From an uncultured Hyphomicrobiaceae bacterium (GTDB lineage: Bacteria > Pseudomonadota > Alphaproteobacteria > Rhizobiales > CAMYJA01): 41,086 nucleotides of DNA. The notes beneath the pieces were generated by a model that did no database searches, was not told where the DNA came from, and worked only from the letters and a program-made list of their open reading frames with translations. Of this stretch, positions 946 to 33,485 are shown piece after piece. The DNA lies in NCBI GenBank assembly GCA_947258705.1, contig CAMYJA010000015.1, positions 1 to 41,086 on the forward strand, read 5' to 3'. Position numbers and translations under genes: made by a program. Every line of letters begins with the position of its first letter. The first letter of the stretch is position 1.

Positions 946-1054
946 GCGCCCCTGCCCGTCAATATTTTTTGCATCTAGATGCCGGGCATGACGATAAAGG
1001 TCGGGCGAAGTATTCGCAAGGTTTGAGCTTGCCGTGCACACCCCTCATCCCGTC

Positions 1055-1074
1055 ATTCCTGCGAAGGCAGGAAT
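1055..1074. repeat. Solo 20-bp palindrome, dRS3-like (ATTCCT-N8-AGGAAT)
   Basis: The palindrome ATTCCTGCGAAGGCAGGAAT is followed by CCAGCC. It shares its GCGAAGGC centre and its CCA right flank with the palindrome at 32931-32950. The inner C/G pair of that copy is replaced here by T/A on both arms, so the dyad is preserved. It lies in the spacer between the TPR gene and the small lipoprotein gene. Confidence 0.75.
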
Positions 1075-1214
1075 CCAGCCAACCCGCGGCCGGAAGACCG
1101 GTATCGGATAATCCTCGAAATTGCCTGTGCGGCAAAGTGACGATGACGGTTCGTGTGAGGTGACGTTGTGGAGAATAATACGCCTCAGAGATTGCCGCCA
1201 TTAATGGCCGCCAG

Positions 1215-32765: not shown

Positions 32766-32927
32766 TTCTTTATCAGGAAAATCGCTGTCGGGGCAATTGG
32801 TGCGGCAATGGGGTCGGGATTGTAGAATGTATGCGGACAGTTGATTCAGCACTGTAACTTCATGTGTATGAAAATACTTAAATGTCGGGCAACCAGAAAA
32901 TCATCTGTTTCGTCAAATATTAAAAAT

Positions 32928-32958
32928 GATTTTCCCGCGAAGGCGGGAATCCAAGCGA
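32928..32958. repeat. Left inverted repeat of GIY-YIG cassette, dRS3-like core
   Basis: The palindromic core TTTCCCGCGAAGGCGGGAAT is at 32931-32950, with GAT before it and CCAAGCGA after it. It matches the right arm (33358-33388, reverse complement) at 28 of 31 positions. The core fits TTCCC-N8-GGGAA, similar to the neisserial dRS3 repeat. Confidence 0.8.
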
Positions 32959-32982
32959 CCATCCGCTTGATAAACATCCAGT

Positions 32983-33339
32983 GTGGCACGAGAGATTCAA
33001 AACACGCCGAGACACCCCAGCGTTTACATCCTTGCCAGCAGTGTGAACGGTACGCTTTACATCGGTGTCACTGCACGCTTGTTTGATCGCGCCATGATGC
33101 ACAGAGAAGGATCAGTCGAGGGGGGCACCAAGGATTACAATGTCCACCGGCTGGTCTATTATGAGATGCATGAAACGATGGCGGCGGCCCAGCTGCGCGA
33201 AAAACAACTCAAGAAATGGAAACGCTTGTGGAAGATTCGATTAATCGAAGAGATGAATCCCGAGTGGAGCGATCTTCTTGATGAAGCTGAGGAGATTTTA
33301 CGCTTTGGCCCTGGCGGTCAGGCCGATGCTCCGCACTGA
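32983..33339 (+). CDS. Small GIY-YIG nuclease-domain protein
   Basis: The protein has 118 residues and is a single-domain GIY-YIG protein (YhbQ/UPF0213-like). The motifs are present: VYILAS (Tyr15), LYIGVT (Tyr26, Gly28), LFDRAMMHR (Arg36, His40), and the metal-binding glutamate in LREKQLKKWKRLWK (Glu73), followed by NPEWSDL (Asn92). All expected catalytic residues seem intact. A GTG start at 32983 is used; no ATG lies upstream before the fold. The 20-residue acidic/Gly tail after SDL is an extension. It is the only plus-strand gene in this minus-strand block and is enclosed by a 31-bp inverted repeat, which suggests acquisition as a unit. Confidence 0.85.
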   Translation: MAREIQNTPRHPSVYILASSVNGTLYIGVTARLFDRAMMHREGSVEGGTKDYNVHRLVYYEMHETMAAAQLREKQLKKWKRLWKIRLIEEMNPEWSDLLDEAEEILRFGPGGQADAPH

Positions 33340-33357
33340 CCGATTGTTCGCTGAACC

Positions 33358-33388
33358 TTGCTTAGGTTCCCGCCTTCGCGGGAAAATC
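33358..33388. repeat. Right inverted repeat of GIY-YIG cassette
   Basis: The core GTTCCCGCCTTCGCGGGAAA is at 33366-33385. Its reverse complement matches the left arm at 19 of 20 core positions and 28 of 31 overall. It begins 18 bases after the nuclease stop codon. It can form a strong hairpin and may also end transcription of the nuclease gene or, from the other side, of lpd. A run of ten G (33392-33401) follows directly. Confidence 0.8.
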
Positions 33389-33485
33389 GGAGGGGGGGGG
33401 GAACTGGTGTCATTCTGGATGGTGGTCGGGGTGTCACACAGTCTGCGATATTCAGAGATCCGATTGATCAGCCGCGAACAGGGTA

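Follow-up and report, generated by a model that had tools for sequence, protein, structure and literature searches.

A small GIY-YIG nuclease gene between outward-tagged CGTC-type REP hairpins as a candidate mobile unit

We analyzed a 41,086-nt stretch of DNA (hereafter the window; positions 1 to 41086 of contig C15 in a 2.77-Mb genome of 66 contigs) and conclude that it probably carries a REP-bounded mobile unit, in which a small GIY-YIG gene lies between outward-tagged CGTC-type hairpins to which its nuclease would be adapted. Five results, all obtained by comparing sequences, carry this conclusion. The comparison shows (i) that hairpins are alike within a locus but differ from one locus to another, at the level of both locus and loop class; (ii) that homologous units occur in unrelated surroundings, with their ends at the hairpin tags above chance; (iii) that orthologous sites may have or lack the unit; (iv) that the units are free of evident target-site duplication; and (v) that the genome also holds dispersed gene-less REP copies and short REP pairs made of this hairpin. 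An earlier note on this DNA had proposed a mobile cassette at this place, a proposal that we regard as partly supported: homologous units appear to be discrete and to come and go, and matched hairpin pairs are enriched around the nuclease genes.

Anatomy of the unit in the window

The features of the unit are collected in Table 1. The two arms that the earlier note had described as inverted copies (32928-32958 and 33358-33388) do agree at 28 of 31 positions, and a repeat finder returned them as a pair of 29 nt at 93%. Each arm folds into a 7-bp hairpin with loop GAAG, and as single-stranded DNA the two are equaled in folding by just 5 and 2 of 200 shuffles. Palindromes of this kind, with up to 3 mismatches, occur three times in the window versus a mean of 0 per shuffle (100 window shuffles). 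The pair is confirmed, with one correction to its extent, which had been put at 32928-33388: as the tags read TGAT and CGAT and not CGTC, the unit is best drawn from 32927 to 33389. Set against the shape of CGTC-1 REPs (8-bp stem, 4-nt loop, and CCA-like tail), the loop and the tails (CCA and CTA) fit and 7 of 8 stem positions pair; where CGTC-1 REPs have an unpaired CGTC tag (or TGTC/CCTC), the arms have TGAT and CGAT. This departure counts against the mobile-unit reading; since CGAT is also the tag of two other REP copies in the genome (L010 and L015), the window may hold a locally varied unit or one in decay. The solo palindrome earlier noted near position 1055 is indeed present, at 1051-1077, but its stem is that of the unit on contig C17 and not that of the window unit.

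Table 1. Features of the window unit and the solo REP
Feature	Position	Strand	Description
Whole unit	32927..33389	+	Tag-hairpin-tail / GIY-YIG gene / tail-hairpin-tag, HH (tags outward); ends placed on the model of the tag-to-tag breaks seen in its homologues
Left REP	32927..32953	+	Tag TGAT; stem TTTCCCGC/GCGGGAAT (7/8 pairs); loop GAAG; tail CCA
Inner 24 nt adjoining left REP	32954..32977	+	Common to gene-less REP copies of the same genome
Small GIY-YIG nuclease gene	32983..33339	+	118 aa; GTG start; Tyr15/Tyr26/Arg36/Glu73 present
Right REP, inverted	33363..33389	-	Tag CGAT; stem TTTCCCGC/GCGGGAAC (7/8 pairs); loop GAAG; tail CTA
Solo CGTC-tagged REP	1051..1077	+	Stem of the contig C17 nuclease unit (TTCCTGC type), CGTCATTCCTGCGAAGGCAGGAATCCA

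The unit lies between lpdA and the gene for a 387-aa protein, in a block that is otherwise on the minus strand (pdhA, pdhB, pdhC, lpdA, and lipA; names read by eye from the translations). It holds the sole convincing plus-strand gene between 29956 and 41086 (ORFs of at least 60 aa up to 36500 and of at least 130 aa beyond), as had been claimed; the longer plus-strand ORFs in this interval run antisense to the five named genes and to the gene for the 387-aa protein. A search for the 387-aa neighbor in 60 relatives and in its own genome recovered matches in four relatives at 23 to 30% identity, none of them from the family to which the window's genome belongs; that family has no member among the 60 relatives. 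Between 32400 and 33900, a search for group I introns and other RNAs recovered no intron family at E ≤1 and two sub-threshold matches at chance level.

The nuclease and its neisserial relative

The 118-aa protein belongs to the GIY-YIG family PF01541 (E = 2.9e-12; 47.1 bits versus a cut-off of 22.6). The catalytic residues of the GIY-YIG domain are Tyr, Tyr, Arg, and Glu, and the earlier statement that they are intact is borne out by a 16-row alignment, in which Tyr15, Tyr26, Arg36, and Glu73 are invariant. No family for this protein was found in PHROGs, PADLOC, or NCBIfam at the thresholds used, and a PDB search recovered two distant GIY-YIG chains only.

The window protein shares 60% identity over 88 residues with a gonococcal homologue. 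That homologue sits amid dRS3-type repeats: it is bracketed by a 29-nt inverted pair, one arm about 190 bp before it and the other about 250 bp behind it, and other repeats lie nearer. We take this homologue to be the published Ssn single-strand nuclease of Neisseria. Ssn is reportedly (in a Nature Communications paper of 2025 from the Veyrier laboratory) a GIY-YIG nuclease that cuts single-stranded DNA site specifically at such repeats and affects transformation. As this close relative is taken to be Ssn, the enzyme type of the window nuclease is probably already known, namely, Ssn-like. The same two facts, the homologue amid its repeats and the reported activity of Ssn, would also fit an Ssn-like chromosomal enzyme of genome dynamics, which would cut incoming single strands at REPs and tune transformation, with the REPs serving as regulatory or protective sites and with no transposon-like movement. 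The position of the gonococcal homologue is compatible with mobility too, and we consider a purely chromosomal role unlikely in view of the unit ends and orthologous sites described below.

Sister units and gene-less REPs in the same genome

PF01541 is found at five places in the window's genome: in a 674-aa frame, presumably uvrC, and in four small genes. Three of these four are enclosed by matched inverted palindromes whose stem differs from one gene to the next: TTTCCCGC in the window, ATTCCTGC on C17 (28 nt, 93%), and ATCCCGGC on C7 (28 nt, 100%). For the fourth, which belongs to another GIY-YIG clade, no matched palindrome pair was found. The arms of the sister units L006 and L007 have CGTC tags, and their stems pair at 8 of 8 and 7 of 8 positions, respectively.

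These hairpins also occur away from the genes. The window hairpin has exact copies at seven places in the genome, two of which are the window pair, and there are variants besides; the C7-type hairpin, with up to 3 mismatches, occurs at nine places, two of them its own pair, versus none for a reversed control. Dispersed copies and HH dimers, both characteristic of CGTC-1 REPs, are present, at a copy number that is low relative to the families in PMC3733652. Two gene-less HH pairs combine another hairpin with a window-type hairpin, one of 108 bp recovered by the scan (L004) and one of about 109 bp with atypical tags that was read by eye (L010).

We compared the inner 24 nt of four unit ends with those of 11 gene-less copies, using 2,000 shuffles. 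At the left end of the window unit, five gene-less copies are identical at 14 to 16 of 24 positions, three of them mutually identical there; at the left end of the C17 unit, three copies match at 21 of 24 positions and are mutually identical. For both left ends, sharing equally high was seen in 0 or 1 of 2,000 shuffles. Counting L003 and L010, five gene-less copies fall below 1% of shuffles at the C17 left end. At the right end of the window unit, three copies match at 12 of 24 positions (15 to 16 of 2,000 shuffles equally high), and at the C17 right end none of the 11 copies matches below 1% of shuffles.

Two further arrangements were observed. At L011/L027 (C12) and L014/L030 (C32), palindromes of two nuclease types stand 175 and 149 bp apart with their tags inward and their flanks partly common, so that two REP types are combined there in a larger repeated element. 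In genome G330, four HH pairs of 108 bp each have the kind of hairpin found in its nuclease unit on C13, a REPIN-like arrangement beside an autonomous unit.

Matched hairpins around homologous nucleases

Homologues were collected as 58 loci from a named collection and from a class sample of 289 genomes, 95 of which have a match at E = 1e-10. The survey set of 190 loci comprises the 58 collection loci, 29 plus 100 loci from the class sample, and 3 of the genome's own; matches in G107, G294, G124, and G167:C56, among others, and most short matches lie outside it. With at least 150 bp on both sides, 186 of the 190 loci could be scored for the best ungapped inverted repeat within 250 bp on each side. 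Enrichment of palindromes near GIY-YIG genes, on which the cassette proposal had been staked beforehand, was found: a matched inverted pair (score ≥16) is present at 100 of 186 loci versus 3 of 274 shifted positions and 5 of 186 cross-locus combinations of sides, where the 186 are not fully independent, since some represent the same site in related genomes (L056/L108, which are identical; L049/L106; and L060/L061/L067 of Sphingobium). The remaining 86 loci are without a matched pair at this score, which counts against a mobile unit. No inverted pair was found for the Rhizobium tumorigenes unit L251.

These figures bear on a further explanation, by which REPs of the host are so common in intergenic space that a pair around a gene is a coincidence or represents two transcription terminators. 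REPs are numerous in such genomes, and the right palindrome of the window begins 23 nt past the stop codon of the GIY-YIG gene, as a terminator might. Nevertheless, arms that match within a locus far more often than across loci or at shifted positions, and different stems around different nucleases in one genome, make this explanation very improbable.

In a simple motif reading of the 101 pairs with score ≥16 among the 190 loci, 49 pairs have outward tags only, 10 have inward tags only, 18 have both, and 24 have neither, a mixture that likewise counts against a mobile unit. Outward tagged hairpin pairs are readable at 60 loci (at least 18 of 24 letters matching). Their tags are mostly CGTC or TGTC and their tails mostly CCA or CTC, and an 8-nt arm encloses a 4-nt G-loop (35 loci), a CTTGA-like loop (19 loci), or another loop (6 loci). 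On a nuclease tree, which has few columns and many open forks, the loop class of 52 labeled loci changes 8 times versus 15.2 times when shuffled, with none of 500 shuffles as low. Palindrome similarity follows protein similarity weakly over 58 loci (rho = 0.17; 1 of 2,000 permutations as high), with 37 of 2,000 permutations as high for pairs below 60% identity and no signal for pairs below 50% (242 of 2,000); this weakness, too, counts against a mobile unit. Candidate specificity columns, scored against loop class with phylogeny ignored, are positions 35, 44, and 49 of the L006 domain. In one supported clade (L058, L112, L116, L130, L143, L233, and L108/L056), several loci have arms of the CGTCATTGCGAG type whose loops are long or variable, reminiscent of repeats of the rickettsial type.

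Unit ends and orthologous sites

In two pairs of homologous units with different surroundings (L051/L052 and L064/L079), homology starts at the GTC tag and stops at the GAC tag. L175 and L181 are two copies in one genome, likewise in different surroundings, that agree at 93.7% over 427 bp, with breaks at or near the tags; in the looser alignment used for the junction count, their breaks lie 7 and 51 nt from the tag. In that count, which covers homologous units in different surroundings and takes each locus once per side, the break in homology lies no more than 3 nt from a tag for 11 of the 24 left junctions and for 12 of the 26 right ones, as against 7.7% and 7.2% of random positions (binomial, 5e-7 and 7e-8). 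Over half of the junctions break more than 3 nt from a tag, and this speaks against a mobile unit. The outer flanks of 56 homologous units (window copy excluded) show no target-site duplication clearly above permuted pairs for k of 2 to 9.

Presence and absence were read at sites with alignable flanks. For the Sphingobium plasmids the query was the filled site that separates fnrL from a response regulator gene, and seven records align over 99 to 100% of it (four of them read, one with a frameshift). Among four shorter matches, TomTYG64 and TomTYG74 lack the gene and have a fused hairpin only, with an outward tag on both sides (the TomTYG74 hairpin is imperfect); in TomTYG72 and TomTYG65 the site is taken up by different sequence. 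Between gltA and lpxB, Sinorhizobium meliloti Ak57 has a remnant plus a full unit; the corresponding site of Sinorhizobium sp. K101 is occupied by a fused hairpin, whose left tag is CCTC, and by one more REP; two more records are K101-like by match alone. The gene-less sites on the Sphingobium plasmids (L257 and L258) and in K101 (L260) look as if a left and a right stem had joined. In Shinella, three records (two read) match a unit that is accompanied by extra REPs, and the records of Shinella H4-D48 and S. oryzae lack the unit and have no REP at the site by eye, which suggests that some gains, or complete losses, need no REP. A search with the flanks of the Rhizobium CIAT894 unit found no clean empty site among the 25 of 64 matches listed. 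At the level of aligned sequence, then, units are shown to be present or absent at orthologous sites, the direction of change not being given by these data.

These results weigh against the Ssn-like chromosomal enzyme introduced above: breaks at the tags, two copies in different contexts of one genome (L175/L181), presence and absence at orthologous sites, and the occurrence of several nuclease matches in one genome (as many as 11 in G182) all fit movement better than a fixed role. The fused hairpins raise another alternative, as ordinary stem-to-stem recombination could be their source. The unit might be moved in trans by some other transposase or by REP-REP recombination, with the nuclease gene as a passenger. 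Stem-to-stem fusion in three empty alleles fits such recombination, as do the 86 of 186 nuclease loci without a matched pair. We nonetheless hold a passenger role to be improbable: the nuclease tree follows hairpin loop class, the nuclease is more frequent in genomes that have REPs, another palindrome goes with a second GIY-YIG clade (see below for both), and PMC3733652 reports just a few fortuitous transposase neighbors of CGTC repeats.

Genome-wide association and a second GIY-YIG clade

The 289 genomes of the class sample were also scanned for exact copies of two REP patterns. Genomes with either pattern have the nuclease in 48 of 69 cases and those without it in 47 of 220 (odds ratio, 8.4, with unit arms counting among the patterns and phylogeny ignored); upon removal of 13 genomes with weak matches only, the counts are 47 of 69 and 35 of 220 (odds ratio, 11.3). 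The window's own genome was counted as pattern negative because its tags and stems differ. When genomes are ranked by copies of the first pattern, nine of the top ten have the nuclease; none was detected in the top one, G336 (91 copies). In all, 21 of the 69 REP-bearing genomes, G336 included, are without a detected nuclease, which is evidence against a mobile unit.

A UPF0213-like GIY-YIG clade (seed L005) was tried as a repeat-free control. Inverted pairs with score ≥13, of another palindrome type, were nevertheless found at 6 of its 13 scored loci (a fourteenth locus was too short for scoring), and the clade was therefore dropped as a control. In a larger set from the class sample, an inverted pair at score 16 is present at 13 of 27 UPF0213-like loci (L264, L266, L268, L269, L271, L273, L278, and others) versus 0 of 54 shifted positions; 30 loci were returned, of which 2 had flanks that were too short and L292, which lies at the start of its contig, was left out. 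The pairs are mostly of another palindrome type, e.g., CTCATCCTGAGCTTGTCGAAGGATGAG, and many are of the TGAGCTTGTCGAAGG type. As this second clade is tied to a different palindrome, the pairing of a GIY-YIG clade with a palindrome family may, as judged from these sequences, be a general rule. The pairing is in any case more general than seen from the window alone.

Proposed mechanism and implications

For the REP-bounded mobile unit that we favor, we envisage the following course. The nuclease would cut one strand at or beside the hairpin while the DNA is single stranded, during replication or uptake, and repair or annealing via the short hairpin homology could then copy the unit into another site in a homing-like manner. 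In an alternative outcome of repair, the two hairpins would fuse and the gene would be dropped. Gene-less copies might be used in trans, by analogy with the use of REPINs by RAYTs. A broader proposal, which we put forward tentatively as somewhat short of an even prospect, is that of transposable elements forming a class of their own, where the enzyme would be a free-standing single-strand nuclease of the GIY-YIG superfamily, neither HUH nor DDE, that would mobilize itself and gene-less hairpin pairs, with different clades driving different REP families across bacteria and with hairpin cutting, short-homology repair, and a fused hairpin at gene loss. Just as tentatively, the families so driven would be the G-loop CGTC type, the CTTGA-loop type, and, for the UPF0213-like clade, the TGAGCTTGTCGAAGG type.

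CGTC REPs, dRS3 and RPE-6 included, are widespread short bacterial repeats, and they are now tied locus by locus to GIY-YIG nucleases. If gene and hairpins move as one, this "orphan" repeat family would gain the enzyme that was thought to be missing. A single small protein and its hairpin now suffice for a direct test of where the CGTC REPs come from. Confirmed movement would add a further enzyme chemistry for the spreading of REP-like sequences and would offer many natural nuclease/hairpin pairs for studies of specificity.

Comparison with known systems

CGTC REPs were defined, along with GTAG-tagged REPs, by Di Nocera and colleagues (2013; PMC3733652). According to that paper, they have 8- to 9-bp stems, 4- to 5-nt loops, and mostly CCA tails; are organized mainly as HH dimers with the tags outside; occur mainly in alphaproteobacteria; and include the neisserial dRS3 (CGTC-1) and the rickettsial RPE-6. 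The likeness to dRS3 pointed out in the earlier note is therefore apt, and the gonococcal homologue itself sits amid such repeats. PMC3733652 states that these repeats "apparently lack a dedicated transposase." Among the literature matches listed, no title or beginning of an abstract links GIY-YIG nucleases with REP palindromes; we make no claim that the link is unpublished.

In form, the surveyed units resemble an HH dimer whose spacer holds a GIY-YIG gene. They share with CGTC-1 REPs the 8-nt stem arms, 4-nt loop, CCA-like tail, HH pairing, and a mostly alphaproteobacterial distribution, and the C17 and C7 units also share the CGTC tag. They differ in their associated enzyme, as PMC3733652 reports none for CGTC-1 REPs, and the window unit further differs in its TGAT/CGAT tags and in one mismatched stem pair. 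Unlike DDE-type insertion sequences, the 56 homologous units (window copy excluded) showed no target-site duplication.

Ssn nucleases resemble the window nuclease as small, single-domain, repeat-flanked GIY-YIG proteins, the gonococcal homologue being 60% identical; the difference lies in our argument that here gene and repeats form a mobile unit. The GIY-YIG homing endonucleases of group I introns share the fold, and a homing-like copy mechanism is conceivable for the unit, but the window gene is free-standing, intergenic, and bounded by palindromes, with no intron found. The closest parallel in architecture is with REPtrons, in which a RAYT (TnpA-REP) is associated with GTAG REPs and REPINs: in both, a single gene lies between tagged hairpins in opposite orientation, gene-less copies and HH dimers are scattered, and several types occur per genome. 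The window enzyme is, however, a GIY-YIG protein and not an HUH tyrosine transposase, and the tag is of the CGTC type and not GTAG. Our contribution is the anatomy of the putative mobile unit and its link to CGTC REPs, and we propose the unit as a GIY-YIG counterpart of REPtrons.
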